Shown here piece by piece: positions 1,477 to 62,421 of a stretch of DNA of 64,000 nt. Each line of letters starts with the position of its first letter. The stretch's first letter is position 1. The position numbers and the translations under genes are program-made. Below the pieces are notes generated by a model. The model made no database searches. It had not been told where the DNA came from and saw nothing but the letters and a program-made list of their open reading frames with translations. This DNA comes from Fistulifera solaris (Eukaryota; Bacillariophyta; Bacillariophyceae; Naviculales; Stauroneidaceae), in contig AP026169.1 of the NCBI GenBank assembly GCA_030295235.1, positions 620,001 through 684,000 on the forward strand, in the 5' to 3' direction.

Positions 1477-1945
1477 GGAAAGAGAAAATGTAATAGGATG
1501 ATTCTTTTCTAGATGGTTGAAAGTTGAAATAGGGAGTAATAATACAGAGTACCGGTACTCCGTAATAAACAATGGCGGCGGCAGACATCCGACTGAACTG
1601 CATTTCAGTCACGAGACGAGAAAGCTTCCTTACTACTCCTTATTCATTAGCGAATAATCTACCTTTATTAGCACCAATTTTAGGTCAATGGTTGATACAC
1701 GAGGACACTTGAGCTCGAACGTCATTGGTGTACGGGCAGATGAAATTGCGTTTCGCCTACCAAAACCTCCGTTTGACAATTAATTGGAAAGTGACTCGAT
1801 GCTTGGTTAATAGTTACAGCATCATTAGATTTCTTTGAAGCAGGGAGCAAACGATGCTAGTACCAAATTCCTATAGCTAGAAGACCAGCGAGAATATGTC
1901 GCAGTCAGAGCAGTTTATTGCAGTAGTATGTATCGACACAGTTGA
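1477..1945. other. Intergenic between Lin0512 paralogues
   Basis: This is the promoter side of the plastid-targeted copy and the 3' side of the second copy. It holds a small GTACC patch (about 1548-1560) and one copy of the GACTG-N5-CAGTC-type dyad at about 1596-1615. Nothing else was recognised. Confidence 0.5.
1596..1615. promoter_or_regulatory. Dyad motif ACTG-N5-CAGT
   Basis: The sequence AACTG, CATTT, CAGTCACGAG forms a short inverted repeat about 120 bp upstream of the start codon at 1476 (minus strand). It belongs to the repeated dyad family also seen at 2670, 3931, 4147, 7647, 43496, 62185 and 62401. A regulatory role is inference only. Confidence 0.35.
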
Positions 1946-2553
1946 TTAATATCCGACAGTCACAGCGACGCAGACGATCACCATATCCGCATTTTTGTCT
2001 CCGAGCTCTTCGACGACACTACCACTGTTGGCTATCATCCCTCCGTCCTGGATCTGAATCCGCACTTCACCATAAGGGAATGCTGCTTTGATGGTAGAAA
2101 GATCCAACTGGCTCTGGTATTTTGGCGGGACGGCTAGCAAGACATCTAGTTTCAAGTTTTCCTTTCCACCGGGTATAATGCTTTTCAAACTAGGGAGCTG
2201 ATTGAATTCAATGGCGTTTCGGCACGCTCTGACTAGTGATTGTTTAATAACATCAAATTGAGACACTATTTCCTTTGATGCTTTTCATTTTACTTTGGAC
2301 TTACCCGCTGCTTTGGTCGAATCCTGGCCATGAGCATCCGACCCAAAGCCTGCGTCGCAAAGATGTAATCAGATGACAAATGAACAGAAAAGATCGACTC
2401 GATTAATTTTACTCAGATTGTTTACTCACCGCACTCGACAAAAGAATGTTTTGCACATGAGACTCTTCTGACAGAGTCTGCGCCGTAGAAGCCTTGCTGG
2501 TCTCCATAATAGAAAATGACGTCGTAGATATACTTGTAACTTTGATTCGTTTT
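1946..2553 (-). CDS. Lin0512-family protein, second tandem copy
   Basis: Exons 2232-1946 and 2349-2305 are clear, and an upstream coding exon ends at 2430 (TGC G, donor gtgagt). Joined, they read HSFVECGFGSDAHGQD, STKAAVRACRNAIEF and end in IVCVAVTVGY, the same family as the neighbour at 761-1476 and with identical intron positions. The open frame runs back to 2553 with no ATG in that frame; a preceding AG at a TAG suggests either an unseen upstream exon or an indel, so the 5' end is unresolved. The ATG at about 2507 is in a frame that does not join the core. No signal peptide is visible, so this copy is probably cytosolic. Confidence 0.7.
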
Positions 2554-2669
2554 CTATGCAACAAGAAAGGACTTGTTAATTGTCACAATTGTATGACAAC
2601 AATTAAAAATCGTTTGCGCCGCAAACAGATCCATCATCGAGCGAAAAAAATAATCCTGTCCCTCAAATT

Positions 2670-2690
2670 CATGACTGGATTTCAGTCTTG
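2670..2690. promoter_or_regulatory. Dyad motif CATGACTG-N5-CAGTCTTG
   Basis: A near-perfect inverted repeat (CATGACTG, GATTT, CAGTCTTG) lying upstream of the minus-strand Lin0512 gene and downstream of the kinase gene. It is one of six close copies of the same 21-bp pattern in the window. Confidence 0.45.
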
Positions 2691-2951
2691 AGAACTTCAT
2701 TTCATATTCTCTACTCTGGCTTCTTATCTTATCAAATTCACTTAATTAACGTATCCCGCCTTAGTACAAGTGGACTTTCCGACCGTCCTTTGCCTTGAAT
2801 GTATAAGGTTCCCTGATGTGTTAACTTTCTAGTGGCGGCTCACAATGAACTCGAATGCTTTTAATTCCGACCCTACGTTTACTGCGACAAGAACCCAAGT
2901 ATACATTGACAAGAATTGTACATCATTTATAAATTCGATGTCTGTTGCTAG

Positions 2952-3854
2952 CTACCACGAGTCCTCCGAAGAATCGTCATCGTCATTCACGTATATGGGC
3001 TGGAGGGTCGCTGTAAATCGCGCTCGGTTTCTGGTATCCAGCAGATTGGTTGCGGTCAAACGCAACATACTGGTTCCCGAACTTGCTTCAAACCACCGCT
3101 TCGTCGTTCGCGGTCGACTCCAGCACTCACCATTTGAATGACAGAATTGATTGCAGGAATGGTGATAAAAGAAGCTTTCGATCCCCTTTTCACCCAGGTC
3201 GGTTATGCCATAGTTCCGTCTACGGGAGCAGATGGCTACATCCGTCAGTTCAAAACGGGACGTCTTTCCCGTGAACCTATCAAAGCGATAGCGACCTTGC
3301 AGGTCACAGACAATCATTTGTCCTCCGGAGCGATGATAAGTGAAATGGGAAAAGGCTTCCATTGCCAGTACGCCCCAGCCTACATCATCTTCGTCGGCAA
3401 TCCAGCCATTATTCGAAGTATACTTTCGAAAATAACGAATCAAAGGCTCGACTAAAAACTTCTTTCCACCAAGATTATGAAGACTTCCGTGCGTAATGAG
3501 AATTTCTTTCCCATAATCACACCACCGGTTCCAATCCTCCGCGAATTGGATGGCCTTGGCCGCCACCTGAAAATCCGTCGCGTAAAATTCGGTTTCAAGT
3601 GCCGAATAATGATCCTTGAAGATTTTGCACACGCATTCTTGTTGATTCCGATTGCCTCCGATATAGGTCCCCGCGTACGCGAGACGAAATTGACCTTCTC
3701 CTACAATTTGACGATGTACGTTTGCGCGGTCGCTGTCGAGATTGGTGCGGGCGGCCGATGAGTACATGATAGTATTCTTTGTGCGCTGAGAATCCCAAAA
3801 GCGTCTTTGATGGAGATGCGAACGATAACTACTAAACGTTGCGCATCCCTGCAA
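2952..3854 (-). CDS. Alpha-type (MHCK/eEF2K-like) protein kinase
   Basis: A 300-residue single-exon gene. An alpha-kinase catalytic domain covers most of it: glycine-rich VGEGQFRLAYAG (51-62), ATP-binding lysine in CVCKIF (K77), the GGQMIVCDLQG segment (178-187) carrying the catalytic aspartate, TDVAICS, and the zinc-binding tail DLGEKGIESFF followed by HHSCNQFC (231-238). These are the diagnostic marks of the atypical alpha-kinase family, which phosphorylates serine/threonine, classically in helical contexts. No calmodulin-binding, WD40 or channel domain is attached, so the substrate cannot be told. The acidic C-terminus (NDDDDSSEDS) is unique. The start is the first ATG of the frame; the N-terminal 40 residues are poorly structured. 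Confidence 0.85.
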   Translation of the reverse strand: MQGCATFSSYRSHLHQRRFWDSQRTKNTIMYSSAARTNLDSDRANVHRQIVGEGQFRLAYAGTYIGGNRNQQECVCKIFKDHYSALETEFYATDFQVAAKAIQFAEDWNRWCDYGKEILITHGSLHNLGGKKFLVEPLIRYFRKYTSNNGWIADEDDVGWGVLAMEAFSHFTYHRSGGQMIVCDLQGRYRFDRFTGKTSRFELTDVAICSRRRNYGITDLGEKGIESFFYHHSCNQFCHSNGECWSRPRTTKRWFEASSGTSMLRLTATNLLDTRNRARFTATLQPIYVNDDDDSSEDSW

Positions 3855-3930
3855 AATCCCTGCAAAATGGCATCTTCAACAGAAACGATAAAGGCGCAAA
3901 AAAATCGCGACGACAAGAACCGTTGCGTCT

Positions 3931-3951
3931 CATGACTTATTTCCAGTCTTG
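3931..3951. promoter_or_regulatory. Dyad motif, one half degenerate
   Basis: CATGACTT, ATTTC, CAGTCTTG lies 77 bp upstream of the kinase start (minus strand). The right arm is intact and the left arm differs by one base from the consensus. Confidence 0.35.
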
Positions 3952-4146
3952 CCGAAAAGCGGCGAACACTTTGGGCCTATAGTAAAACAAAACGGGAACG
4001 ATCCGACCGAAATTTTGACGTCAATGGTCGGATGGATCATGGCTCGTATACCATATCATACACTCTATCCAATTGATGCAGTGTCCACGTGTTTACGAGG
4101 CAGCATTCACAATCGCAAATAATGTGAAATCAGAAAGCGTTTGTCT

Positions 4147-4167
4147 CATGACTGAAATCCAGTCTTG
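4147..4167. promoter_or_regulatory. Dyad motif CATGACTG-N5-CAGTCTTG
   Basis: A full copy of the dyad (spacer AAATC) about 185-200 bp upstream of the likely HslV start codon at 4352, in the gap between the divergently transcribed kinase and HslV genes. Confidence 0.45.
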
Positions 4168-4351
4168 ATAAAATTCGACGTCCTTACGCCAGCGAGCATG
4201 CTTTGCTCGATTTTCTTATGCAGCGAAAAATAATAACTTCTCGCATTCCACCATGGTGTGATGTGAAGTTGACGCGTCCTGCAATCAACTCCTTTTGAAT
4301 CCTTACTTGGATAATCTTTTTTCTGTCTTTACCATATCACAGTATTCCTTT

Positions 4352-5091
4352 ATGAATCCTTCAATTTCTTCCAGAATTCTTTCACGAAATGTATGGAAAG
4401 CTGCGACATTCCGCACCTTGGCCTCGTCGGACGGATGGCACGGGACGACGATTCTTTGCGTCAAAAAGGATGGAAAAATCTGCATGATGGGTGATGGTAT
4501 GGTGAGCCAAGGTAACATGATTGTCAAACCGAATGCTGTCAAGATTCGCAGAATTCCGGATAAAGCAGACGCCACGAGCAAAGTCACTCCGACGCTGGTG
4601 GGGTTCGCCGGCGCGACGGCGGATGCTTTCACTCTCTTGGAGCGCTTGCAAGGAAAGCTAGACGAATACCCTGGTCAGCTACAACGAGCGGCTGTAGAAG
4701 TAGCCAAGGGTTGGAGAACAGACAAGTATCTCCGAAGATTAGAAGCGTCGTTGCTGGTGGCGGATGCCAAGGGAGTTTACGAAATGACGGGGAATGGCGA
4801 TGTCTTGGGCAGTCATGACGGAGTTGCTGGAGTTGGCAGTGGGAGCCCTTTGCTATTGGTAAGTTCTGGGATCTTGTTTATCAATACACCGAGACAGACG
4901 CGATCCTCATTTATTTGTGTAATTTACAACCGACAGCCGCGGCACGTGCCTTGATGGATTCAGACCTCTCCGCGGAAGAAGTGGCTCGAAAAGCAATGAA
5001 CGTGGCTGCCGACATGTGTGTTTATACAAATCATCAATTTCTTGTTGAGGTAATAGACGCCAAAGAACCTACGGAGGAAGGAGAATCATAA
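4352..5091 (+). CDS. HSLV: HslV (ClpQ) protease subunit, mitochondrial
   Basis: Threonine protease of the HslUV proteasome-like complex. After a basic presequence ([20 protein letters not shown]...) the mature N-terminus is expected at the TTILCV threonine. Also visible are [50 protein letters not shown] and GVGSGSP, followed in exon 2 by AARALMD and CVYTNHQF, all standard HslV blocks. The intron is 4859-4936 (gtaagt to cgacag). As printed, the exons join out of frame by one base; one more base in the CCCTTT run at 4846-4851 would give SPFAIAAARAL, matching the family exactly, so a sequence error is likely. An upstream in-frame ATG at 4295 would lengthen the presequence. No hslU is in the window. 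Confidence 0.88.
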
Positions 5092-6246
5092 GAACGGGCC
5101 TGTGTCTCTTTCTAGAAAGGATGGTTTTTCCTAAAGATACTATTATCAAAGCTGCGTATCCGGATGATTTCGTAAAGCTATGATTTATAGACTCCGACTA
5201 GCTGAAATACAAAAGTTCCGACTATTCAAACGTCCATTGACTAGGGACGACTCGCATTTAATGCTTGCTCTCTCCATGTATTAGTCATTCTGAAGTTCAT
5301 TTTGCACGCCATCGCACACGTAAACACTCTCTAGAACAAGATCGTCATGCTTCGTACGTAATGTGATCAAATACGTGCTCTGATGCTGCAACGTTTGACG
5401 TTCTTTCTTACACTACGTGATCAACTTTGTGACTCAAAGTTGCAGATGATGCGCGTGACGTCGATTTTCTTGCGGGAATACGAAAAAATTTCATACATTA
5501 TTGCAGAGTAAATTCGTTGAACTTGAAGCTATCCACGGCTTACCCGGTTCAAGATGAATACGAATGTACATTAAGTCTTCTTTTCGGTCTTGTTTCTTGT
5601 TTACATATACTACTTATCCATTTTTTAAATGTTCTGTGCGATTGCTTGACGCATGACCGCATGACGCATGACTTCTTAACGAATAACGAAGAGACTACGA
5701 GCGTCTTCATCTCATCTGTCGTCTCCATCTTCCCCGCTATCATGATATGATTGTCAAACCCACATTACTATGGAAGAAGGCAAACGACATCATTAACATC
5801 AGCATCCTAAACTAAGATGTCGCGATACAGCTTCGTACTGCCAATCGGCCACGTCCTTTATGCCCTTTAATAACGCTAAGTGTCAAGTGCCTTCCTGCAC
5901 AGAGTCCTGCGTTCACTCGAGCTACCGTAGTACGTAGTATAAGGAGACAGGAAACATGATCGTCTAACGTTACAACAATGTACAAGTGTGACAGAAGCAA
6001 GATATTCGACTCAAACCTTCTTGTCGGTACAAAATCCACATGATTCTACGCACAGGTGGCATGGCAAATCCATGTTTAGATTCCCTTCCGTAGAAACACT
6101 ACCGAGACACTTGGCTCGTAAATTCCGAGCGACATGTTCGCCTTTCTCAAAGTTTGCTACCGATCTCATTAATTTGCACGAGAAAGCTTGCCGCATATCT
6201 TTTCCATCTAATGTTTTTCGAAGAGTTTCACGAGCCTCACGACATC
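5092..6246. other. Intergenic, no gene recognised
   Basis: About 1.1 kb between HslV and the DUF6824 gene. Short open frames on both strands lack any protein-like composition. There is a small tandem of GCATGAC words at about 5649-5672. It probably holds the HslV 3' UTR and the promoter of the next gene. Confidence 0.4.
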
Positions 6247-7388
6247 ATGCCGAGACCTTTACTCCGTAACAAGAAGAAGGAAATCGAAGAAAATGCAGAT
6301 TTGCAGACCTTCCCGATTGCCGACCTAACGTGTCATGATATCATGTTGGGCAGAGGAAATGCGGTCGCGCACAGTGAGGGCAACGTCTGCTATCGAGCCA
6401 TTATCTGGCAGTACCGGGAGATCTATGTTGCTTCTGCACGCGACAAAAAACAAGAGATTGCGCAGCAAGTGATCGACCAAGTGTATGCGCTGGATCCTCC
6501 GGGGCGATTCCTCGAGTACATATCGGACGATATGTGTCGAGAAGTTCCCCATGCTCGTATCCTCGAGAAATGCTGCCAATCGTTGCGAGAAAAGAAGTAC
6601 AAGAAAGTTCCCAACATTGATCTTCCTTTGCTCGGCAAGCAGTCCTCGACCAGCGGTACCTTGTCGAAGACGACGAGATGTGCCTCCCGCAAGAAGAAAA
6701 TCTCTCCGCGAAAGGCCAAGACCGTCGCATCATCAATCCAGCAGACCACAAAGCACGAGTTCAAGTTGACAAAAAGCAAGATTGGAAAACGACCCACCAC
6801 GCGAAAGTCAGGAGCCGAAGCGCCGGAGTCCGACGTTCAGCAAACGAACATGAAAGATTCAAACAGCCCCGACCGTGAGGAAGAGCAAGCTGCGACCGAA
6901 ACCAAGATGGATATCGGAGAGAAGACTCCTATTTGTGACAATAGGAGCTTCATCAACGCCAAAAAACTTCTTTTGGGCAAAAGGTTCAACCATCTACGAC
7001 GGAGGCGACAACGGCGAAGCCTCCCCCTTTGGAACAGCCTGCCGGTATGGAAAACACCAAACAACTTGCTGAAAGCGTGGAAGAGTCCGAAAACGAAGTC
7101 TTCGATGGCATGTTCAACATGTTGCCACTATCTCTTGTGGAGTTTTACACCACATCCGCTGGCGATGACCGCATCACGCGCGAAAAGACACGTGAAGAAA
7201 GCATCGAGTCACCCACCACCGTCATGGACGATTTTGGTTTCCTCCCACCGCTTCCTTTGCAGATGGCGAATTCGCTGTACCTCGAAGGTGAGACCAAGTG
7301 GGTCAACCCCGCGGATAATGTCACGGCCAACGTCGTGGCCGCGTGGACGGAGTTCGCCACTAACGGCGGTTTCGCCCGATACAGCTGA
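6247..7388 (+). CDS. DUF6824-domain protein (frame break)
   Basis: The N-terminal third carries the diatom DUF6824 pattern: HDIMLGRG, then HSEGN, a basic helix (RAIIWQYREIY, ARDKKQEIAQQVIDQV), PPGRFLEYI and ILEKCCQSLREKK. The middle is a basic, Lys/Ser/Thr-rich linker. The C-terminal part (KVQPSTTEATT, SVEESENEVFDGM, DDFGFLPPLPLQ, WVNPADNVTANVVAAWTEF) is in another frame. The switch falls at an A6 run at 6961-6966; one added A gives a continuous protein of about 380 residues. The domain is common in diatoms and often predicted as DNA-related, but its function is unknown. ATG 6247 is preferred; an upstream in-frame ATG (6154) adds 31 unlikely residues. Confidence 0.7.
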
Positions 7389-7646
7389 GCATTCTCGGCA
7401 ATTTTGGTTTCATAGAAACGTAGAAAATTATTAGTAGTGTTGATTGTTTGGATTCATGTTCTTCAGCGTTGTTATCTACATTTGACTTAGTGTTCCAATC
7501 CATTCACATCGTCTTCACCGCAGCGTTCTTCGAAAAAGCGCACCAAAACGACGCAACTGTCTCTCTCATAAGTCGAAATCACAAAGCCGTCCGTTGTCAC
7601 CCGTTCTTGCTAGGAGTATAGTCCAAAGTGTTGGTCGTTTTTTTGC

Positions 7647-7667
7647 CAAGACTGCGTTTCAGTCATG
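7647..7667. promoter_or_regulatory. Dyad motif CAAGACTG-N5-CAGTCATG
   Basis: Inverted repeat with spacer CGTTT. The flank after it (AATAAATATTG) resembles the flank of the copy at 62401 (AATCAATATAC), hinting that a longer unit was once shared. It is about 325 bp upstream of the CLF1 ATG. Confidence 0.45.
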
Positions 7668-7824
7668 AATAAATATTGTGTTGAGTCAACCTGCTACGCA
7701 ACGACCGTTTTTTCGTCAGCGTTGTGAAATACAATTTGACTTTATTTCAATTCAAATCTTCTGCAGCATTTGCCTATGCGCATAACAAACGAGAAATTCG
7801 ACAAAGCCGTTGATTTCCGGAGAT

Positions 7825-7847
7825 CACGACTGCAGCTCTGTCACGAG
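7825..7847. promoter_or_regulatory. Degenerate dyad motif
   Basis: CACGACTG, CAGCT, CTGTCACGAG keeps the symmetry of the flanks but has CTGT instead of CAGT in the right arm. It lies about 150 bp upstream of the CLF1 start. Confidence 0.3.
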
Positions 7848-7991
7848 TTGTGAGGGAGCATGATCTCCATAGTCTTGCTTTCACCCGTCTCCCTTCAAAC
7901 CAAAGCGCATTGACAAAAAGTTAAAAAATAATCGAGGTCTTTTTCTTGTTTTCATCATTTCCCTGACTCTTTTCATTTGCATTGCAACAAC

Positions 7992-16552: not shown

Positions 16553-18138
16553 CTAGCTTTCTTGCAGTTCGAGGTCATCGCCCAACTGATGTTTGGTAGA
16601 CTCTTTCGCATCCGGGTTTCCAAGATACGTGACATCCGGTTCATATCGAGCGACTTTTCTGTGCATCAGGGCGATGACCCATGCAGCCGAGCAGACACCA
16701 GATGCTTCGAGGAATAAGCACAAACGGATGATCAAGTAGATGAGCGGGTTGGACAAGAAGGCGACCGGGAAAGCCGATGCAATGATGCGCCAAGCTAGTG
16801 ACCCTATGATGGTTGTGATGATAGCACCTAGAAGGCCTGTGTTGAAGAAATTCTGAATGCCCGCACTCACACCGAAAATCGTCGTCTCGCCCTCGTCGAC
16901 GCTGCACGTGGCTACGCGAGCAACGATGAACATGCAGCATGTCACACAGATCTGGCGACCGATCAAGAATGCTTGAAGGTGTGATCCAGAAAAGACCAAA
17001 TCGCATACCTTGGCGGCCTGTGAATGCTTCTTCAACTCATCTTTGGGCATGTTGATGACAGCAAAGAGAGCAATCTGCATGCCTTCCATCATACCGACAA
17101 ACGCCATCAAGACGAAGAGAAGAGTCACCGAGACTGGCTCAGGAACACCACTGTACATAGTAGTCTTGCCGTCAAAAAGCGCAACCAGGGTAACTGCCAA
17201 GGAAAAGACAAGACAGCCACCGAGAAAACAATTCTTAACCAGAAGAAAATGGCTTGTGGGATGGTGCGTGTCGGTTGGGTGTCGGTGGACTTGCCGGTGA
17301 TCTTGGCAAAAATAATCTGAACCAGGTAGACCGAATGTAGCAAACCAGACATTTCGATGAAAAGAGAAACATGCGTTGTGATCAGCATGACGTAATTGTT
17401 GATAAAGTCGAGCATGCAGTCGGCAGCATTGACCTGAGCCGTCAACTGCCCGAGAATGGTCGTCATCAAAATCAATGCGACGCCAGAGTTGATGAAAATC
17501 TCCACCATAAAGTCGGGCAAGTTGAGAACGCTAGCGCCTTTCAATGCCGATCCACACATGTTGATGACAAAGATAACGAGCACAACAAGGAACTGCCTTC
17601 CGACAATAAAACGTTCCAAGTTATTTCCTTCGTGAGCCAATTTCGTAACCTTCAATGCTTTCGGATGCGACTGAGCATAGAGTGTCTTGTCAATAGGCTG
17701 CAGGCCCACGAGACAACCTTGTCCTCCTTCCATGAAGGCCAACCAAAGCGTAAGAACCCAAAGAAGAATGAAAGCAACAGCAGAGTTGACGTCAGCTGCC
17801 ATTTTTGTCTGATCCGTGAAGATGGTGGCGGTGACGACGATGACCGAGAAGAGCAATAGCACAAGCGAATACGAATACTTGAACAGCGTGGCCAATGTGT
17901 GACGCCCATCTTTCACATTGTCTTTCGCAGTGTCCTGATCACTTGACTTGAGCTGTACCTGTGCTTCTTCGTCACTGATATCGTCGGACGAGATCGAAGT
18001 GCTGCCCTGTTCATACGTCGGCTTGACCGGAAGAGAATCTGGAGTGTTTGACATGATAGCTGGATCTGGTTCGGTGGTGGAGTTATACGTGTTACTTGAA
18101 ACTAAACGGCTGTTAACTTCTTTGGCCTTTCGAAACAA
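16553..18138 (-). CDS. SIT: Silicon transporter (SIT), copy A, frame break
   Basis: Multi-pass plasma-membrane carrier for silicic acid, about 530 residues with ten predicted membrane segments. Both SIT signatures occur twice: EGGQGCLVGLQPI with FIVGRQ, and EGMQ with LIGRQ. The two halves are in different frames because the plus-strand A run at 17203-17206 has four bases, where copy B has five at the matching site; adding one restores SFSLAVTLVALFDGKTT. Either the copy is newly inactivated or this is a sequence error. The likely start is the ATG at 18054 (MSNTPDSLPV); 18138 is also open. Copy B lies 1 kb upstream in the same orientation. The C-terminal region is almost identical between copies. 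Confidence 0.85.
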
Positions 18139-19137
18139 CGGCTTTTAACCTTTTTCGCATCAAGGTAAAAATGACAGTTTTGATGAACCGACAAAAAACC
18201 GCAAAAAGTCTGAAAGTTAAATTTTGGAGAAACAACTTGAAATATAACGGTTTAAATAACGCTAAACTACCGATAAACGTTATATAGTTTCCTAAGTAAT
18301 ACTATTGGTTTCCTATCTAAAGATGCGCGCCCAGAAATGTACATTAAACGCTAGACTCAGTTTTTCGTACTTAGGCTTCGGAGCTCTAACAAACCTGGTA
18401 CGAAACAAGGGTCATGATTAGCACTTGACGAAAATCGATCGCGGGCTCAACCGCAGACAAGGAGCTGTTGTGGCAAGGGACATCGAATTTATCGCTTACT
18501 CGAAGATCTTTTCTATCGCTGAATATTGCCAAGAATCCCCTTCCATGAAAGCAGTCTTAAGTGGCGAGCTACTTCCGTTGAAAGGTTTACACGGTACTGC
18601 CCACGCCGCATCAGTATAACATCATCGCGAGGACGACAAGTTACATCATGCATCGTATAGAAAGCAAATGATGCCCAAGTTAAACGTGGGATCATGTCAT
18701 CGCTTGGGGCGGATGTCAGCAAAGGTACTGTAAGCGACAGGGGGCGCAATGTGGACAAGCGATATCTACCGAAGACTTGCCATTGACTACTACGGCCCGG
18801 ATCCATTGTGACGCTGTTAATGAAGGAAACCATTGGAGTGGGTCATTTTGTAAAAGAGTACGGTGAAAGTTGAATTTTGTCAAGCAATTGTGCAATACTA
18901 AGTCATCATTATATTGCATTGCTGGGGTTTGGGCGCTGATGATTTGTTAATGATGGCATAATAGCATATGGAGTGAAGATAGAGTTTCTATAAAAAACTG
19001 AACATTAATAGAGATTTGAATTTCTATTTTTTAAAACAAATTTCGTTTAACTTAATTCGTTTTACTTCAAGGGGTCGTATCAGTCGATTGATTGGTCAAT
19101 CCACTAATCCACAAAGTCAAGAGTTAGTTAGATAGCT
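18139..19137. other. Intergenic between the silicon transporters
   Basis: About 1 kb that should contain the promoter of copy A and the 3' region of copy B. Its 5' part (near 18140-18420) is AT-rich. Open frames on the minus strand (18513-18919) have no recognisable features. No duplicated promoter segment is obvious by eye. Confidence 0.4.
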
Positions 19138-20742
19138 TTAGTTTTCTTGCAGTTCGAGGTCGTCTTCCAACTTTTTGCCGGCTCCTCCGGTTTTCGAAGG
19201 ACCAAGATAGTCGACATCTGGTTTATATCCAGCAACCTTTTTTTGTAATCGTGCCAGGACCCACGCGGCGGAACAGACACCAGATGATTCGAGGAATAAG
19301 CACAAACGGATGATCAAGTAGATGAGCGGGTTGGACAAGAAGGCAACCGGGAAAGCCGATGCAATGATGCGCCAAGCTAGTGACCCTATGATGGTTGTGA
19401 TGATAGCACCTAGAAGGCCTGTGTTGAAGAAATTCTGAATGCCCGCACTGACCCCAAAGATCGTCGTCTCGCCCTCGTCGACGTTGCACGTGGCTACGCG
19501 AGCAACGATGAACATGCAGCATGTCACACAGATCTGGCGACCGATCAAGAATGCTTGAAGGTGTGATCCAGAAAAGACCAAATCGCATACTTTGGCGGCC
19601 TGTGAATGCTTCTTCAACTCATCTTTGGGCATGTTGATGACAGCAAAGAGAGCAATCTGCATGCCTTCCATCATTCCAACAAACGCCATGAGAACGAATA
19701 ATAGCGTGACGGATACAGGCTCAGGGACACCACTATACATAGTAGTCTTGCCGTCAAAAAGCGCAACCAGAGTAACCGCCAAGGAAAAAGACAAGACAGC
19801 CACCGAGAAAACAATTCTTAACCAGAAGAAAATGGCTTGTGGGATGGTTCGTGTCGATTGATTCGACTCTGTCGATTTGCCGGTGATCTTGGCGAAAGCG
19901 ATTTGAACCAGATAAACGGAATGCAGCAAACCAGACATTTCGATGAAAAGGGAAACATGTGTTGTGATCAGCATGCCGTAATTGTTGATAAAGTCCAACA
20001 TGCAGTCGGCAGCATTGACCTGAGCCGTCAACTGCCCAAGAATGGTCGTCATCAAAATCAAAGCGACGCCTGAGTTAATGAAAATCTCCACCAAAATATC
20101 GGGCAAGTTGAGAACTCTAGCGCCTTTTAATGCCGATCCACACATGTTGATGCCGAAAATGACTAATACCACTAAGAATTGCCTACCGATGATGAATCTT
20201 TCCAGATTTTCTTCCTTGTGGGCCAAGGTTGTGACTTTCAATGCTTTCGGATGCGACTGAGCGTACAGTGTCTTGTCAATAGGCTGCAGACCCACGAGAC
20301 AACCTTGTCCTCCTTCCATGATGGCCAACCAAAGTGTAAGAACCCAAAGAAGAATGAAAGCAACAATCGAGTGAACATCTGCTGCAATCTTTGTCTGATT
20401 CGTAAAAATAGTCGCTGTTACCACGGTGACGGAAAAGGCCAATATTGCCAGTGAGTACGCATATTTGATAAATGTGATACTGGTATAGTTCTGGAAGCCA
20501 GCTGGCAGTGTTTCTTCCGATTTCGTTTGTACAGATGCTTCCTCGTCATTGGCAATCACATGATCGAAAGCATATTGTTGAGAGCTGGCTTCAGAGGGAA
20601 CCGTCGACAAGGGCGATGAGTTGCTGCCGTATATCGTGCCCGGTTTGAACGGTACACATTCTCTCATCTTGGATCTTTGTTCTTCTTTATGGGAATGCGA
20701 TTTCGGGGCCTTGAGAGAGAGGTGCAACGAGGTGGTATCCAT
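19138..20742 (-). CDS. SIT: Silicon transporter (SIT), copy B, intact
   Basis: A 534-residue intact member of the diatom SIT family, which imports orthosilicic acid with sodium. The N-terminal 85 residues are hydrophilic. Ten hydrophobic segments follow. The paired motifs are EGGQ at 143-146 with GRQ at 186-188, and EGMQ at 359-362 with GRQ at 401-403, the hallmark of an internal duplication. The C-terminus is acidic (DDLELQEN). Unlike some SITs it has no long C-terminal coiled coil. It is the head gene of a tandem pair with 16553-18138, and its neighbour upstream (Mei2-like) is divergent. Confidence 0.93.
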   Translation of the reverse strand: MDTTSLHLSLKAPKSHSHKEEQRSKMRECVPFKPGTIYGSNSSPLSTVPSEASSQQYAFDHVIANDEEASVQTKSEETLPAGFQNYTSITFIKYAYSLAILAFSVTVVTATIFTNQTKIAADVHSIVAFILLWVLTLWLAIMEGGQGCLVGLQPIDKTLYAQSHPKALKVTTLAHKEENLERFIIGRQFLVVLVIFGINMCGSALKGARVLNLPDILVEIFINSGVALILMTTILGQLTAQVNAADCMLDFINNYGMLITTHVSLFIEMSGLLHSVYLVQIAFAKITGKSTESNQSTRTIPQAIFFWLRIVFSVAVLSFSLAVTLVALFDGKTTMYSGVPEPVSVTLLFVLMAFVGMMEGMQIALFAVINMPKDELKKHSQAAKVCDLVFSGSHLQAFLIGRQICVTCCMFIVARVATCNVDEGETTIFGVSAGIQNFFNTGLLGAIITTIIGSLAWRIIASAFPVAFLSNPLIYLIIRLCLFLESSGVCSAAWVLARLQKKVAGYKPDVDYLGPSKTGGAGKKLEDDLELQEN

Positions 20743-21552
20743 CGGAATATATTGAAAGACTTTTTACTTTTTTCCGGATCGAGGCGCTCCCGGCGCGCTC
20801 CCTCCTTTGGTACAATATTGTTGAGAGTGCTTCCCTCCGACATCGGAATTTGAGTCTTGATAGCCAAACCGGCACTCGAAAAATGACAGGAAAACGGTTC
20901 CCCTAAATAAACTTGTTCCCCCCCCCCCCCCCCAATTCAAATATTCCAATGTCTCGGCTCGGCATTTAACGGACCAAGGAAGGACCGCACATCCAGATCG
21001 CGTTTTTCGATGGTTCCGCAATGGACAATTGACAAAGCCGCCCTTCGCCGCCGCTACTGTTGCTGCTATAGTCACTTTGTGAGTCTTGTTTATTGTGAAC
21101 AGACGGAAGGTACGACGCCAAGGCTTCTCTCGGCTCTCGTCTCCACCATCCACGAGATTTTTTCTTTGATCGTCTGCTCGCTGCTCGTCGCTCGTCGACT
21201 GGGTAGAAAGCGTTATTGGGTCGATGGTTCGTAGATGCTCTTTTCGGTCTCTAGTAGTTTCACCGTCTGCTGCTTCCGTTCAATCTCCATCAGTTATAGC
21301 CAGTCACTATTTCTATCCACAAGAAGCCAATTAACGCTTCTTTTGCATCAATTGGACTCTTTTTTTCTCGTCCATTCAATTATTACAGAACAGCTGACTG
21401 GATTGGGTAGTCATTGCAACGAACGAAACCGTCGTTCCTAGTGAGCAGATTGATCCAGTGTCTAGAGGTCTGGTCCAAACCGTCACGCTTCGTGAATTGT
21501 GTGCAATCAACAATTCATATAGAAGCAAGGAGGAGACCCTCAGCAAATTCAC
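20743..21552. promoter_or_regulatory. Shared upstream region SIT-B/Mei2-like
   Basis: An 810-bp gap between divergent genes. It includes a run of 16 C at 20918-20933. The 21235-21552 part is pyrimidine-rich and is probably the 5' UTR of the Mei2-like gene. No open frame here looks coding. Confidence 0.4.
20918..20933. repeat. Poly-C run (16 bp)
   Basis: A homopolymer of 16 C between the SIT-B and Mei2-like genes; its length is likely to be uncertain in any assembly. Confidence 0.9.
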
Positions 21553-35471: not shown

Positions 35472-35494
35472 CGTTGTCGCCCTTCCCGCAAGCG

Positions 35495-38563: not shown

Positions 38564-39385
38564 TATTATTACGGAGTATTTTGGTAAATGTGAATTGTTG
38601 TTTTATTCTTTCAAGTAGATGGTAGTTGACTTGCTGGGAATGAAACGAATGAATCAATCAAGAAATAATAATGTTGTTTTGTGTTTTGATGTTATACAAG
38701 TACCAGGTAACATAAGTACTTTGTATTCATTGATTTTTAGGAGTAATTCGTTGCCTCGCAAGGATAGCAACGCGACGATATCTCCGCTCTCCGCTCTACC
38801 GTATAGTCCATCTCTCGAACAACGGACAGGCACGGATGGATGGACAGCCGCTATCCGCTATCCGCTATTGCTACCGTAGCTAGCACAATATGGAAGCGAA
38901 ATCAACCAAAAAAGGCGGAATTTTAGGTATTTTAGTCGTCCAATAACATCATAAATAGCAAAAAAACCAGATGAATTATGAATTATAATACTCGCTTGGA
39001 TGAATTGATCGTAGCTTGCCACTATTTTATTATTTCATTCGTAAAGGGGTGTCGTAGATGACGGGACTGCAGTCTCGTCAAGTCACTCGTCATGGCACCC
39101 ATACACTTCAATCCATACAAAAGTTGTAGTCGATTGAGTGCTGAACAGGTACCGCTTCGAAAAGATGACGTTGCCTGAAAGCATGTTGGCGGAAAACAAA
39201 AACAGCTGTCCTCGTCACAAAATAAATAAAAACGTGTGTCGTGTTGTTGTGAAGAGAAATAAGAGACACTTCTTTGCCTCACAACAATCGTCTCTTTTGC
39301 TCGTTTGGCCTTCCATAATAACTTACAATCCCCGACGAGGCAGTCAAGGCATTCCTACATGTAAACACAATAATAAAAGTTGGCC
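38564..39385. other. Intergenic upstream of the oxygenase gene
   Basis: A gap of about 820 bp between the divergent SEH1 and 2OG-oxygenase genes. It holds a small GTACC word cluster at 38697-38710 and a dyad variant (GGGACTGCAGTCTCGTC) at about 39060-39080, roughly 310 bp upstream of the next start. Confidence 0.45.
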
Positions 39386-42647: not shown

Positions 42648-43495
42648 TCAATATTACGACGTCAATTTGAATACTTATTGTTTTAGCCTTACAGTGTGCC
42701 GCAATGGCGGTGACAACTCGTGTCGGGATTTCGTCCTTTGTTGACGTGTGTCGTGCGTCGCAACGTAATAGGCGGCGAGATTAAGTGCAACGGTCTTACA
42801 ATTTGGCCCTACAAAGAATACAAGAATAAAAAATTGGCGACCACATCGAGCGACTCTGTATATCAAATACGTGCTCCAGGAGAAGATAATAAAACACATG
42901 GGAATTAACGGAAACATAATTTGTACTGTTAAAAACTCTATACCTCCTTTGTGTAGACATTTTTATCAATTCATTTTCTCGTCAGTAGTATACTGTGCTA
43001 TTTTTTTATTTTGAAATTTGGACTGTGGCATAACCAGAAGCTGGGATGCCTGTAGCGAGGTCATTAGCATACATTGCGCCAGAGGGTAAGTCCTTAAGTC
43101 CTAATTTTTGGCGAGAAATGGCCCCCCCTCAGACTCCCCCCCAATGTCAAAGCGAAAAGTGGAACTTTTCGGATTCACGCCGTGCTCGGTGCGTGCAACG
43201 CACAGACCGTTTGTCGCAGTGTGGGCAAGAGTGTGAGCGACCTTTCAGCGTGACTCTCATTTCATTCATGAGACGACAATGAGAGACGATCGTCCCCTTT
43301 GCTTGCATCATTATTTTGACAATAATTTTTTCATTATTTATAACCCAGTACTTGAATGTTTATTCATAATTTCCCAAAGTCAGAATGTAATTTTGACATT
43401 CGAATGAATTTTCTCATTTTATTTGCAGTAGAGTATTATACTATCTCTTCTTGACCCAAAAATACACAATCGGCCAGAGTGTCCCCAACTTTTCA

Positions 43496-43520
43496 CATGA
43501 CTGAGATTTGCAGTCACGAG
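43496..43520. promoter_or_regulatory. Dyad motif, 7-bp spacer
   Basis: CATGACTG, AGATTTG, CAGTCACGAG; the arms match the family but the spacer is seven instead of five. About 300 bp upstream of the kinesin ATG. Confidence 0.35.
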
Positions 43521-43737
43521 ATTTTTCCCTTGCCAAGAGGACTGTCTTATTTACAGTGACAGTCTGTCACGCGCGCTTCTCACTACCGCGAAGACTGGCG
43601 TACTATAAACATGAAGTATTAATAATATACATTATTCTATATCGTATAAGCTGCCCGGCGCGCATCACTTAGATGAGATTTCCTCGTCAAGACACCAATC
43701 AGCCACTCGATCTCCATTCACATTTTTATCATTCCAA

Positions 43738-48726: not shown

Positions 48727-48796
48727 TCTGGATTCGAATAAAATTCTAACTGCATATTTAGTTTGTTATTCTTTACATGACTATTCTTTATTAACG

Positions 48797-58013: not shown

Positions 58014-60232
58014 CTACCAGTCGCTGGAACTTCCACCATTGCGGGCTCCGATTCTCGATAATCGTACTTCGTCACCGGAAACGGGATCGTACTGTTTCCA
58101 GGAAACGGTACGATGGCGTGTCATGTAATGGAGTGGCAATGGCACCGGTTCGGTCATTTCGTGCGAGGATGATAACAAGCTCTCGGATGGCGGTGGCCAC
58201 AGATACAGAATTTCGGCTTTCTTCAGACAATTGTTTTCCTGGAATGCCGATTCCGGTGAATGCGGTCGACCAATGCAATGTTCACGCATCATTTGGGCCT
58301 CCAAACGTTCCAAATCATCCGTGGGTAAGCGTCCTTTGAAAACAGCAACTTCCGCTATTGCGCCGTCACCACCTCGTTCCATGTGTTGTCCACAACACAA
58401 CGAAATGCCAAAACAATGATCGGAGCCCAGCGTTAAACCATCCAACATCGGTCGGCCATTCCGATATTCCACGAAGTGATGATGCTCAACGCCTTCTTTC
58501 ATCCCATCAACGCGTAATTCGGTGCGATTGTCATCCACAACGGCAGTATAACAGTGCCACGATCCGGGTGAAAATCTCCCACGATGTATTCTGCGTCGGG
58601 TGTAATTCTGGTCGTCGTCATCGTACTCGTCTAGTTTATTTCCAACATTCCGATAAATACATCGGCATCGATTCATTCGGTTGGGACCCTTCGGATCGTT
58701 GTCACAACCACCTTCGTCCTCTTCACTACTGCCATCACCATAACTTCGTCCACTGTTTTCGATAGCCACCGAAGCGTCCTCGGATACATCGTCTCTTACG
58801 GACAGCCGACCCGACGCTTCGTCTTCGGCCTGGGAGCTATTGTCGTACATCGCATGATCATCGTTGGAAACGAGCGATTCACGATCCTCTTCCTGGATCC
58901 AATCTACCGTTGCAATACAAAGAGCACTTCGTTCGACTATTTCGGTTAGTTCATCTTCGGGGTACATGTGCCCTAACTCAAAGCGGTGCCGCAGTCCGGA
59001 TAGAAAACAACCGTCTTCTGTAGCAATGGCGACACAGATAATGGTGACCGGTTCGGAGATGGGGCCGCAAGCGAAGAGTGGTGTAATCATACACACCGCA
59101 TGATATTTGGGCGCGTTTAGAAACTGAACGCATCGTTTTCCGGATTTTCGGGCTACTTCATCCACCAATTCGTCTTCTCTTTGTGTCATTTGATTCGTAC
59201 TGGCGCTTGTTATAACACGCGGAAGAACTTCACGCTGTAACTCTCGACGATGGAGCTCCTTTCGGATCAGGTAATCTTGAAGCTCCTGCAACCGAATCTC
59301 GGTCGTTTCCTCGTCGTCGTCATCATTTTCGCTTTCACTCATATGAGAATTGATGATTTTATTCACATCAATCGGCTTTCTACCATCAACAACAATATCT
59401 TCATCCATGCAGAGACAATAACTCTCGGGACGCGCAACTGTAGCCCCCCTTACGGCAAATGTAGTTTGATGCCGCTCCACGTTCTCTATAGCTAAACGAC
59501 CAGATATTGACCCGTCTGTGATGCGTGTTATTGTCATTGAGGGACTTATTGACAGTTGAGCCGCCGCATTGAGCAAACTGGATACAAAACTAGATCGATA
59601 ACCGAAGTGACGCAAGACTTGCAGGGGTTGCTGGTAGCCGGTCCATTCCACAATTGTGCTAACGCTATTCATATCGTCAGGACTTATGGAGTGGCTGTTA
59701 GTAGCCAGAGCACTGTTCTTTTCAATTTCCCTCTTCTTGAATCTTCATCATCGTCATCGTCATCCGTTTCATCCAAATTTTCTGCACCATTTGGTGCGAA
59801 ACGTCCCTGAAATTGAATTATTTTTTGAATCGGTCGGGTATTGTTCGCCAAAAGCATAGCCTTATAAATTTGTTGCTGAATAATTTCCAATTCCTCTTCT
59901 TTCGATAAAGTCATCGCCAATCGTGTCTCTTTGATTCCCTCGGAACGAAACCAAGCGGCACAAAAGGTCTCATTGTCTCTCGGAACGCGCGATTCCTTTC
60001 GTCCATTTTTTCGCATTCGTCCGTTGCAGTTGTCTCCTTCTATAATACAGCGTAGCATGGACGGAAGGAGTAGAAGCTGATTCGTTTGATCGCTAACTGC
60101 TTGTTCTAATAGCACTTGATGCAAAGCATTTCTCCAGCCGACACTGACATTGGAGAAACTCGCCACATCGCTATTGGAGACGTCTCCTTGTAAAACGGCC
60201 CATTTCAAAAACACTTGCTCCGCGGTGCTCAT
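58014..60232 (-). CDS. Diatom LamG/ConA-like protein, unknown function
   Basis: About 739 residues in one exon, broken once. The C-terminal third resembles a concanavalin A/LamG-like domain: RFSPGSWHCYTAVVDDNRTELRVDG, GLTLGSDHCFGISLC, GDGAIAEVAVFKGRLPTDDLERLE. In front are acidic stretches (ESENDDDDEETTE, EDEGGCDNDP) and a compact region with FLNAPKYHAVCMITP. The N-terminus (MSTAEQVFLKWAVLQGDV) has no signal peptide, so it is an intracellular protein despite the lectin-like fold. The first 175 residues are in another frame; one missing base near 59735 would read KREIEKNSALATNS and join them. No function is known to me. Confidence 0.7.
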
Positions 60233-60726
60233 TGTATTGCCTCTTTGTTAGATGGGATAGACGCGATGTATCCTCTCGTTGTTAGGAATCAACAAGCCAA
60301 CAATGAAGGGAACACATTTGGAAAAAGAAAACGAAAGCGACGAAAAACAAAAAAAAAAATGGAACGTGCGGTGCTCTGGAGACGATCGCAGGACGAACTG
60401 TCGTCGGGAAGCGCGTTTCGAGAATAGTGATTTGTAAAGCGGTACGTCTCAATAAGTAATCACTATTGCTGTAAGTGTGGTTTCCTTTTCTTCACGACTC
60501 AAATCATTTTGCAGTCCCGGAAACTATGGTACTAACAAAATGGGCACTTTTGATGGACCAACACATGTAGATTTACAACGTCGCGCAATTTTCTACCATC
60601 AAATTAGTGATGTTGCTTCTGTTGTACAAGGAGATACTTAAAGCACGCTCAAATTCAAAAGTGAAAAACAGTGTTTTGAAAAACTCACTTAAGCTATAGC
60701 CCGCCTACGTGTCTTTTCCCAACCTG
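60233..60726. other. Intergenic, no gene recognised
   Basis: About 490 bp between two minus-strand genes. It contains a short A-rich run (60343-60359) and a CAGTCCCGGAAAC half-dyad word at about 60514. Confidence 0.4.
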
Positions 60727-61896
60727 TCAAAGGCGATGATCCGCAACGAAGCGGAAAGGTTCTGATGGCACCTCAAATCGAACCGTGCCGACATGGTGTT
60801 CATTGAACTCATCGTTGGAACTTGTTAAATGTTCTTCAAACGATAAAAAGCCGTTCCGACCATGAATATTGATTGGTTGTATAGTCAACACGATCTTTAC
60901 ATATTGCCAAGGCTGCTTCGCGATGACTGTTACTTGTCGTCCACTAACTTGATATCTTCCCCAAACGGCCGCCGCATCTTCTGTGTAACCCAAATTCACT
61001 CTCCGTAATCGCGGGAACATGTCATGCGGAGCCGTTGTAGTCAAAGCATAAATAACGCGCCCGTCTTCTTGAAAATACAAATAGCGATAGTATATACTTT
61101 CAAGGATGGCTCCATGAGGGATCTAAAAATCACCATCAAGTTGCCTGTGAGGTCATTTTCAGTTCAGTCAACCTTTCCAGCCACGATGTATCTTACCTCG
61201 GTCCACATGTCTCGTTGAATCTTTTTGATTTGTTTATACTTGATCACGTACACACCACCTCCAGCACGGACTCGTGGTCGCTTTTCCAGCATGGTACGGT
61301 ACGAATTTCCAAAGCGCGAGACGTGCAGTGTGCGTTTCTTGCTTTGCTGCAGATACAGACGTTCGCACAATCTCCGGTAGGCTGCTTCGGTCCTGGTAAA
61401 CGATTTCCAATGTGGACTGACTAATGCCAATGTAGCATAAGTATCTACTGGTAGAAAGTCAAAGACTCGATGCAACAAATCATCCGGAAGTATCAGTATG
61501 CGTCCACCCACTTGAAGTAACTGATCCGTCGGTAACGTGTCTTGAGCGGCCAGTCGTTCCGATTCTATTTTCTCATCCAGCTCTTCATGATCCGACTCTT
61601 CTTCTTCATTTTTGGCTGCTTCTAGTTTGCGTTGCTCTGCTTCTACCATCAAGGGATGAGAATCGTCGGGCTGAGGGGGGATACGCTAAGGTGTTGGAAT
61701 ACGGTTGGCTGTCGGAAGAATCTCCCACGGCACGTTGCATTGTCATATATTCTTCAAATTCACCGATTGTTTTGTAGCCGTACTTGAATGCCAATTCCTT
61801 GCGCTCATTCCTTGACAACATGTGCCAAATCGGCCACGTTAACTCCCATTCATTGTCCCAAATTTCAACGGAAATAGGAGCACTGCCGGAGCTCAT
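60727..61896 (-). CDS. F-box protein, FBXO9/Hrt3 type
   Basis: Two exons, 61896-61197 and 61122-60727 (intron gtaaga to tttttag), about 364 residues. An F-box (ILILPDDLLHRVFDFLPVDTYATLALVSPHWKSF-like, about 125-160) is followed by YRRLCERLYL and the FBXO9 substrate region RPRVRAGGGVYVIKYKQIKKIQ, YYRYLYFQEDGRVIYALTTTAPHDM and GRYQVSGRQVTVIA. The family acts as the specificity subunit of SCF ubiquitin ligases. The N-terminus has no TPR helix as in animal FBXO9. The frame breaks at GGGGGG 61675-61680 (plus strand); one G fewer gives PPQPDDSHPLMVEAEQRKLEA. Confidence 0.85.
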
Positions 61897-62184
61897 CTTT
61901 AGTTCTCAATCTTCTCGCAGTGTCGCTACCCCCCACAGAATTTGCCGCAACAAAATTCCATTCAATCGAGACTCCAAAAAATGATCGGCAGAGGTAACTG
62001 GGTTTCAAAGCAGCAGAGGCAGTGTTATGCAATAGACTAGAAAACGAAGCGCCGACGGAATTTTTAAATGAATCATCATCATCATTATCACTCGACGATG
62101 CGCGTAGTAGCAGTCAGAAATTCCGTCTGCATCAAAAAAGAACAACTGTATCTACTATGCCCCAAAGTGTACTGTCCAACAATC

Positions 62185-62205
62185 CACGACTGCTCATCAG
62201 TCACG
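62185..62205. promoter_or_regulatory. Dyad motif CACGACTG-N5-CAGTCACG
   Basis: Full dyad with spacer CTCAT, embedded in the interspersed repeat. Confidence 0.4.
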
Positions 62206-62400
62206 AATCAATATTCTTTCGAGCGACAATGCTGCCCATATTTTTACTCGTTCCGCAACAACCTTAAACTCCACTTGTCGGTATTGCAAAAATAGGCTAA
62301 AGCAGTGTTTAGATTACACGTCATTCTATTTTAAGTTGAACAGCCTTGCGAAACGTTGTCTGCCGTATTATTATAGACCAGAGTGTTGCCCGTTTTTCGT

Positions 62401-62421
62401 CACGACTGCGCTTCAGTCATG
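62401..62421. promoter_or_regulatory. Dyad motif CACGACTG-N5-CAGTCATG
   Basis: Full dyad with spacer CGCTT; its flanks match those of the copy at 62185 and partly those at 7647. Confidence 0.4.

Follow-up and report, generated by a model that had tools for sequence, protein, structure and literature searches.

Abundance and spacing of the dyad

A palindromic dyad, CAYGACTG and CAGTCRYG separated by five bases, recurs in the 64,000-nt stretch of Fistulifera solaris DNA analysed here (the window). The question is whether it represents a promoter site for a dimeric protein or the core of a mobile repeat; both had been proposed in the initial annotation. The dyad proved real, and its frequency greatly exceeds chance. 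With up to three mismatches, the pattern CAYGACTGN5CAGTCRTG matched the window at seven positions (2670, 3931, 4147, 7647, 7825, 62185 and 62401; the left arm is mutated at 3931), against 0.77 expected, and none of 100 shuffles attained seven matches. The genome-wide copy number is also well over chance: the 51.7-Mb genome holds 1743 occurrences of GACTG-N5-CAGTC and 27 of the backward control. The five-base spacer length is specific to the dyad. In a sample of 264 kb (the window and 20 stretches of 10 kb), the exact arms occurred at 12 places with this spacing, five of these in the window, and at 0-2 places with each of the remaining spacings between 0 and 12; five alternative arm pairs occurred at 0-1 places each.

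The looser copies gave mixed results. Taken by themselves and allowed two mismatches, the inner arms were found 25 times in the window against 23.65 expected, which is the chance level; the proposed copy at 39060 depends on these arms and is therefore not supported. The copy at 1596 is a plausible decayed copy, and the one at 43496 has a weak model match but a spacer of seven bases (Table 1). The half-word CAGTCCCG is more frequent than expected from base composition (seven against 1.4), but it is absent from the core consensus.

The conserved core and its copies in the window

The dyad sits at the end of a core that is conserved and asymmetric, measures about 55 bp and recurs in the tandem monomers. 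This core consists of TTTACTATAGnCCaAAGTGT, then usually about 11-14 bases, then CCACGACTGnnTTTCAGTCATGA. Its upstream half, ACTATAGNCCAAAGTGT, was found 76 times genome-wide and its control not at all. The copies in the window are collected in Table 1. The homeologous core listed there for 7621..7675 lies about 0.35 kb past the last alignable base, and we infer that it occupies the same site. Alignments of many other copies to the window copy end at 62457-62478. The decayed third core at 62983-63039 had been missed in the first reading of the sequence.

Table 1. Repeat features in the window (positions counted from its first base)
Feature	Position	Strand	Evidence or remark
Decayed core, dyad part only	1597..1617	+	nhmmer 17 bits
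Core reduced to dyad	2660..2694	+	Upstream half (CACTATAG..AAATGT) missing here, present in homeolog L052
Core 1 of direct pair, 216 bp apart	3927..3977	-	Also in homeolog, spaced 210 bp there
Core 2 of the 3931/4147 pair, exact dyad	4142..4183	-	Homeolog dyad has two arm mismatches
Full core, exact dyad	7621..7675	+	Core also in homeolog, L052 6356-6402
Decayed core, 178 bp downstream of the 7621..7675 core	7809..7849	+	nhmmer 22 bits
Doubtful remnant, dyad with 7-base spacer	43480..43521	+	nhmmer 15 bits
Element 5' terminus CAGAAATTCCGTCTGCATCAAAA	62115..62137	+	1 mismatch to family pattern
Core 1 of subfamily-A element	62162..62213	+	Dyad pattern and core model
First-monomer spacer	62214..62374	+	Spacer model 126-127 bits; copy itself among the model-building rows
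Core 2 (216 bp beyond core 1), perfect dyad	62375..62429	+	Dyad pattern and core model
Third monomer, interrupted start	62430..62478	+	Spacer model 23.5 bits
Different repeat inside third monomer	62494..62891	.	141-nt units, 231-bp spacing, 95% alike
Third monomer remainder with decayed core	62944..63039	+	Core 62983-63039 read by eye

Organization of the repeat element

The dyad is not an isolated factor site but one piece of a repeat of about 220 bases, often arranged in short tandem rows. The shared flanks of the copies at 7647, 62185 and 62401 had suggested the core of a mobile repeat, and the similarity indeed extends well past the dyad. The monomers are direct tandem units of about 216-233 bp, arranged head to tail, with alike centres and decayed edges; one copy is inverted (locus L020). 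Among the exact dyads listed for contig 1, 30 of 99 neighbour distances fall within 201-246 bp (0.28 expected; sd 9.9), a range that does not demand a nucleosome-fixed spacing. These listed dyads form 68 separate clusters in 1.94 Mb; 52 of the clusters contain just one exact dyad, and the maximum is six. Arrays read from end to end contain 6, 5, 3 and 2 exact or near-exact dyads. With 40 candidates scored per query, the L051 monomer had at least 102 subfamily matches and the window copy at least 107; these counts include self-matches and tandem neighbours.

Subfamily A, which includes the window copies at 62.1-63.0 kb, is the best-defined subfamily sampled. Its 5' end, CAGAATTTCCGTCTG..TCAAAA, occurs in 97 copies genome-wide, and the control in none. 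A complete copy consists of the 5' terminus, a core, and then repeated units of an approximately 160-bp spacer and a core. On contig 1, listed exact dyads lie within 1.5 kb of 11 of 13 termini, in every case on the downstream side only, and in 7 of these 11 cases the first is 71-78 bp away; of the two termini with no listed dyad nearby, one is past the end of the listed range. The terminus is also seen as an alignment boundary: when other copies are aligned to L027, 22 of 50 alignments end within two bases of it, and 10 of 107 rows aligned to the window copy begin within two bases of it. It is absent in two of nine subfamily-A loci (L025 and L051), and was found in only one sampled locus outside the subfamily (L029), these other loci being members by their core. 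Only the longer pattern is specific, since the first 11 bases with one mismatch occur at about a dozen places away from cores in the sampled DNA.

The 3' terminus could not be fixed from the copies compared. An inverted copy of the 5' terminus downstream was found in none of eight copies; the best inverted matches to its 15 bp, over the next 1.4 kb or as far as the stretch extended, had 4-5 mismatches (P 0.10-0.70 against shuffled motifs, all eight copies). A MITE, as a derivative of a transposon with terminal inverted repeats, does not match these eight copies, in which the terminus has no inverted partner. An LTR-like or target-duplicating element was rejected, as no terminal or target-site duplication was seen by eye, with the 3' end not fixed. 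A tRNA-like SINE was considered by eye and found no tool support.

Homeologous sites and a probable subgenome bias

Absence from the homeolog was checked by design at two sites, and at both of them the copy was missing. The homeologous contig has 101 bp in place of 636 bp at L027, and 98 bp in place of 956 bp at L019. The unaligned stretch is longer than the element at both sites, so the break is not base-precise, and the absences could alternatively be due to deletion. The window pair at 3931/4147, the window copies at 62 kb and the L017 copy are present in both homeologs; thus, the family is old. For L012, no core was found among the homeolog matches listed (best 40 of 89 candidates scored). 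The 5' termini are distributed 59:16 between the odd and even contigs of C1-C24, and the upstream 17-mer 50:13. The odd-contig excess of 5' ends is probably a subgenome bias, and the repeat apparently spread more in one of the two parental genome halves.

The excess of the dyad, the tandem monomers, the one-sided shared 5' terminus and the homeologous absences together indicate a dispersed, satellite-like mobile repeat. The mobile-repeat proposal is supported by the direct tandem of about 216 bp, the 97-place terminus and the two absences. In this diatom, whose two subgenomes have diverged, the dyad is probably the easiest part to recognise of a family of mobile, non-coding repeats dispersed through the genome. 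Scattering of a plain satellite by unequal crossing-over and segmental duplication, with no mobile element involved, is very unlikely. Such a satellite would be compatible with the head-to-tail monomers, which are alike in their centres and decayed at their edges, and with the inverted copy in L020; yet the shared 5' terminus keeps to one side of the listed dyads wherever there are any nearby, the 68 clusters are spread over one contig, and copies are absent at two collinear homeologous sites. Classical satellites share the head-to-tail arrangement, but their long arrays, characteristic of heterochromatin, were not found here, as most contig 1 clusters hold a single dyad among those listed and the sampled copies lie between predicted genes. 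The CENP-B box is a protein-binding box in centromeric alpha satellite. It is likewise a short conserved box in more variable tandem monomers, the binding being a feature of the CENP-B box; unlike that centromeric satellite, the repeat studied here occurs as short intergenic arrays and single copies.

Placement relative to genes

The annotated position between genes holds for the core model matches. All 72 in the sampled DNA lie outside predicted coding segments, including all 9 in the window and all 14 in the 20 stretches of 10 kb that were placed systematically; window and stretches together are 60% coding. The proposed promoter proximity was not borne out: the cores lay a median of 391 bp from the closest predicted 5' coding edge (57 matches), against 320 bp for random points drawn from the same intervals. 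None of the 33 intervals holding cores is convergent, and with length controlled this avoidance is borderline (P 0.04-0.09 for intervals of at least 500 bp; 0.05-0.12 for at least 600 bp). The cores have no orientation preference relative to genes. The adjoining genes are varied; among 25 of 29 Pfam families listed for 37 predicted segments, histidine phosphatase alone recurs (twice), and no transposase-named family was seen.

A host transcription or chromatin factor might bind as a dimer, either to the 21-bp dyad or to the entire core, with promoter sites kept by selection and tandem duplication merely adding sites. The palindrome with its fixed five-base spacer, the non-coding placement and the lack of convergent intervals would fit such a site. 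So would several patterns of conservation. The core z is above both flanks in 16 of 27 neighbouring pairs, in windows of unequal length; the array cores of L033, L020 and L051 are nearly alike by eye while their spacers are not; the spacers of 19 of 32 loci are unlike those of any other sampled locus; and a homeologous core persists near 7647 despite unalignable flanks. Judged by eye, the likeness of cores between arrays with nearly unalignable spacers exceeds what would be expected from simple neutral decay of one repeat, which counts against the mobile-repeat reading. However, the copies were chosen by exact dyads, which biases them towards conserved cores, and kept arms with a varying spacer would also be expected of old diverged repeat copies picked by their arms. 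In 11 of the 27 pairs, mostly recent arrays or those with a poorly anchored partner, the core is not above both flanks, and within subfamily A the pre-dyad box is no more conserved than the spacer. Constraint between homeologs was not significant in the 3931/4147 pair, where 17 of 104 core sites differ against 71 of 298 sites in the non-coding neighbours (P 0.13), and the homeologous 4147 dyad has mutated arms. The lack of any pull towards gene starts and the odd-contig bias of the termini and the upstream 17-mer also count against a factor site. As read from sequence, the circumstantial support for a promoter-proximal dimeric factor site is weak, and this explanation is unlikely.

An RNA gene, small-RNA promoter or RNA hairpin terminator is extremely improbable. 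By eye, the dyad could form a 5-bp hairpin and a TATA-like CTATAG lies upstream of it; but Rfam and tRNA scans of the window returned nothing, orientation relative to genes is indifferent, and convergent intervals, where terminators would be expected, hold no core.

Comparison with known elements and motifs

The repeat resembles the HINE and Cg_HINE elements, without their subterminal inverted repeat having been found. HINE/DINE-1 elements are described as non-autonomous Helentrons (PMC4067079). As in that description, the repeat is non-coding and of high copy number, with central repeats, a short palindrome, a palindromic 5' end (CAGA ATTTCCG TCTG) and no target-site duplication visible by eye. 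Unlike them, no subterminal inverted repeat pair was found, and a TT insertion preference is not evident in eight flanks: the base before CAG is T in six of eight copies and TT in two, with the 3' end not fixed. Cg_HINE of Crassostrea gigas are described as satellite-like repeats carried by non-autonomous Helentrons, in arrays of mostly two or three monomers, predominantly 140-180 bp (PMC7492417). The family shares with them, on that account, dispersed short arrays inside an element with flanking sequence (here the 5' terminus, then core and repeated spacer-core units of about 216-233 bp), and a palindromic sequence within the element; that account also has groups in which the flanks are similar and the monomers unrelated. 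The subterminal inverted repeats were found in none of eight copies here, and the 3' module is undefined. In the HINE and Cg_HINE elements as described, the palindrome lies 8-35 bp before a fixed 3' end; here it is present in each monomer, with the 3' end not fixed.

Two diatom promoter motifs have been described: Thalassiosira oceanica has ACACGTGC (PMC3491386), and Fistulifera solaris has TABASTA (PMC5935921). Like the dyad, both are, as described, short and upstream of genes, but the dyad sequence is unrelated to ACACGTGC. A TABASTA word lies within 40 bp of 29 of the 72 cores. Only 8 of 93 TABASTA words in the non-coding sample DNA are inside cores; therefore, the repeat does not explain the TABASTA motif, and identity of the two was rejected as the main explanation. 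Among the open-access matches listed, no diatom promoter study with a CATGACTG, CACGACTG, CAGTCATG or CAGTCGTG motif was found, nor any published description of the family under diatom tandem or palindromic repeats, motifs or Fistulifera repeats; we do not claim that it is unpublished. One exact pattern had no matches in the IMG/VR viral contigs.

Proposed origin and significance

Copies of the mobile repeat may have been moved as a unit by machinery acting in trans, most likely rolling-circle (Helentron-type) or a similar transposase. The arrays would expand and contract via recombination between monomers, and lone cores and pairs might be older copies that decayed or collapsed. The palindrome is probably a binding or hairpin site for the mobilising machinery, possibly re-used by a host protein. 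A further reading, in which the core and not the element is what is kept, is unlikely. A putative DNA-binding protein, either the element's recombinase or initiator or a host regulator, would recognise the 55-bp core. Hundreds of promoter-bearing intergenic intervals would thereby be seeded with pairs of sites separated by roughly the length of a nucleosome and its linker, to a different extent in each subgenome, which might contribute to the bias in homeolog expression known from this allodiploid diatom.

Caution is warranted with palindromic "promoter motifs" of compact algal genomes, since such motifs can be pieces of mobile repeats. The use of subgenome-specific transposon relics was said, in the F. 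solaris study, to need a better assembly than the authors' own (PMC5935921). A subgenome-marking repeat would give a direct, gene-independent parental assignment of the chromosomes of the allodiploid diatom, and would order events before and after hybridisation.

Abundance of the dyad and its conserved core

The GACTG-N5-CAGTC palindrome (the dyad) is recurrent well above chance, as the initial annotation had suspected: 1743 copies were found genome-wide (51.7 Mb, 61 contigs), versus 27 for the backward-read pattern. The window corresponds to C24:620001-684000. The window contains seven full-arm dyads (up to 3 mismatches) where 0.77 are expected, and none of 100 shuffles scored as high. The inner 5-base arms, with up to 2 mismatches, occur in the window at chance level (25 versus 23.65 expected), so looser copies such as 39060, which had been counted in that annotation, are discarded. 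Exact arms at spacing 5 occur 12 times (window 5, stretches 7) in 264 kb, comprising the window and 20 10-kb stretches from contigs C1-C20; all remaining spacings in the 0-12 range occur 0-2 times each. Otherwise family-like dyads have a 10-base spacer (position 1061 of sampled locus L049) or a 7-base spacer (window 43496). The word CAGTCCCG, absent from the core consensus, occurs seven times on both strands of the window (395, 13917, 14106, 15569, 39062, 51008, and 60512), versus 1.4 expected from base composition.

The dyad terminates a conserved unit of about 55 bp (the core). Alignment of 41 exact copies, with overlapping loci and copies too near stretch ends removed, showed that the core is asymmetric: TTTACTATAGnCCAAAGTGT, as a rule about 11-14 variable bases, then CCACGACTGnnTTTCAGTCATGA. 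The upstream half alone, ACTATAGNCCAAAGTGT, was found 76 times genome-wide and 0 times in controls, and is therefore by itself no artefact of dyad-based selection. An iterated nhmmer model identified 72 core matches of at least 15 bits in the sampled DNA (window 9, 20 stretches 14). Inverted cores lie beside forward cores at L020 1227-1265 and at L011 1370-1404 and 1474-1521. TACTATA, a box within the core, conforms to the published TABASTA motif (PMC5935921); a TABASTA word lies within 40 bp of 29 of the 72 cores, and only 8 of the 93 TABASTA words in the non-coding part of the sample are inside cores.

Tandem monomers and subfamilies

Neighbour distances were taken from the first 100 exact dyads listed (contig 1, 0-1.94 Mb), out of 1743 in the genome. 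Thirty of 99 distances were 201-246 bp (mean 219.7, sd 9.9), versus 0.28 expected if random, and none was shorter than 201 bp. These dyads fall into 68 clusters, of which 52 contain one dyad each.

Dyad arrays in sampled loci
Locus	Dyads	Spacing	Sequence
L051	6 exact	227-233 bp	in full
L006	5		in full
L033	3; third with two arm mismatches	231 bp	in full
L020	2, plus one inverted decayed copy	217 bp	in full

The core alignment z exceeded that of both flanks in 16 of 27 neighbouring pairs in the sampled DNA, and not in 11; pairs with one decayed, poorly anchored copy (e.g. L001, L017, and L023) are unreliable. Cores clearly matched while spacers resembled shuffled sequence in L002, L003, L013, L024, L027, and window 3931/4147. 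Core-masked comparison of 32 loci linked 13 to another locus and 19 to none. Nine loci with a common spacer form subfamily A (L005, L006, L018, L019, L023, L025, L027, L051, and window 62 kb); L024 is linked with L033, and L026 and L049 are linked with each other and with L006 through an unrelated 93% repeat. A short repeat, 93-94% alike, lies beside or between cores (L049 706-858, L006 2847-2993, and L026 1356-1486), and its presence would explain the 385-bp core spacing in L049.

A profile detected weak monomer similarity that extends upstream past the core, from about -70, in some of the 19 unlinked loci; as its target contained the core, this extends the core and is no proof of spacer homology. 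In subfamily A (8 monomers from 6 loci), conservation is similar along the whole monomer (15-column means 0.44-0.85) and peaks at the dyad, itself the selection criterion. Thus the data are compatible with constraint on the core as well as with simple shared descent. A regulatory function of the core is a lower-probability possibility, supported mainly by the likeness of cores across arrays with spacers that no longer resemble each other.

The 5' terminus

In six of the eight subfamily-A loci scanned (all but L023), no match to the spacer model precedes the first core; L025 and L051 do have one. A different shared sequence, CAGAATTTCCGTCTGnnTCAAAA, the left end of the element, instead occurs on the same side in eight copies (seven of the nine subfamily-A loci, and L029). 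Its first 11 bases, with 1 mismatch, occur at about a dozen other sampled places, as expected of a short word; the 23-base terminus pattern occurs 97 times genome-wide (up to 2 mismatches), versus 0 for the control. For 11 of the 13 contig 1 termini, all listed exact dyads within 1.5 kb are downstream and none upstream. The nearest listed dyad follows at 71-78 bp in seven, at 99 bp in one, and at 165, 221, and 481 bp in the remaining three, whose first dyad has presumably mutated. The other two termini lack a listed dyad nearby, one of them being outside the listed range. Alignments of other copies to L027 end within 2 bases of the terminus in 22 of 50 cases, and 10 of 107 rows for the 62-kb window copy begin within 2 bases of it. 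The third monomer of that copy encloses, at window 62494-62891, a pair of 141-nt units that lie 231 bp apart, are 95% alike, and contain CCAGAATTTCTGG-type palindromes; related pieces occur in L005, L039, and L052.

Presence and absence in homeologs

The spacer query from window 3980-4140 matched one other place, collinear on C23 (80%), and that from L017 matched one other place, collinear on C2 (74%); the L012 flank also matches C2. These collinear single matches indicate that C1/C2 and C23/C24, the two pairs compared, are diverged homeologs, consistent with the genome of an allodiploid diatom, for example Fistulifera solaris, for which 42 homoeologous chromosome pairs are described (PMC5935921).

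Several copies are shared. L052, the homeologous stretch, aligns to window 1747-7525 (82%) and retains the 3931/4147 core pair at a distance of 210 bp; these cores differ at 17/104 positions versus 71/298 in spacer and flanks (P 0.13). Where window 2670 has the dyad only, L052 carries the core's upstream half too; an L052 core near window 7647 lies past the last alignable base. The 62-kb element matches C23:699231-699836 (75%), and the L017 pair matches C2 across both cores (75%).

Absence was assessed with both flanks for L027 and L019 only. Both subfamily-A copies are absent from C2, where the flanks are 101 bp apart versus 636 bp on C1 (L027), and 98 bp versus 956 bp (L019); the unaligned stretch is longer than the element, which leaves the breakpoint imprecise at base level. 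Among contigs C1-C24, 5' termini number 59 on odd versus 16 on even contigs (75 of 97 termini, P ~2e-6), and the upstream 17-mer 50 versus 13 (63 of 76, P ~1e-5). These P values assume odd contigs to be 52% of length (from C1-C20 lengths), and are too small since copies within one array are non-independent. The odd contigs probably all represent one subgenome. Among C1-C24, L051 monomer matches fall on odd contigs only (40 scored of 126 candidates); window-copy matches include C2, C4, C8, C12, C22, and C24.

Gene context

A coding predictor trained on long ORFs from the same DNA assigned 60% of bases in the window and stretches to coding segments. All 72 core matches lie outside these, confirming the intergenic location originally described. 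The 33 distinct core-bearing intervals with both neighbours comprise 14 divergent, 19 tandem, and 0 convergent ones (for the lack of convergent ones, P 0.005-0.015 relative to their fraction of interval length; 0.04-0.09 for intervals of at least 500 bp, and 0.05-0.12 for at least 600 bp). Core orientation showed no preference relative to tandem gene pairs (11 versus 9 clusters). The promoter-proximal placement once proposed was not borne out, the distance from core to nearest predicted 5' coding edge being no shorter than random.

Pfam families were searched in 37 neighbouring coding segments (at least 330 bp, from non-overlapping 3-kb loci, four merged ones excluded). Of the 29 families found, the 25 listed are varied, with one in two segments and none transposase-named. 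In the window, a tandem gene duplication at 16554-20763 consists of two long coding blocks with an offset of about 2583 bp, 88-97% alike in four stretches. Segments 765-1060 and 1157-2352 are diverged tandem gene copies (54-nt match, 78%), and L052 400-695 also matches 765-1060 (72%).

Nature of the repeat

The dyad belongs to a family of repeats whose left end is defined and whose monomers are direct; at two sites a copy is present on one homeolog and absent from the other, and the 5' ends are unevenly spread. These features support the mobile-repeat alternative of the initial annotation, which had also considered a transcription factor site. Copies have probably transposed in trans; each monomer's palindrome could serve as a hairpin or binding site of the transposition machinery, and arrays could grow by recombination or read-through. 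The closest architecture is that described for the HINE group (PMC7492417, PMC4067079), with satellite-like monomers between modules carrying subterminal inverted repeats and a 3' palindrome. Unlike those subterminal inverted repeats, the 5' terminus had no inverted partner in any of eight copies searched, and the repeat is therefore not filed as HINE, although by analogy it may work like such an element. In summary, the family is a satellite-bearing mobile repeat, a real and strong, mostly conventional feature of this genome, and a role as regulator is less probable.
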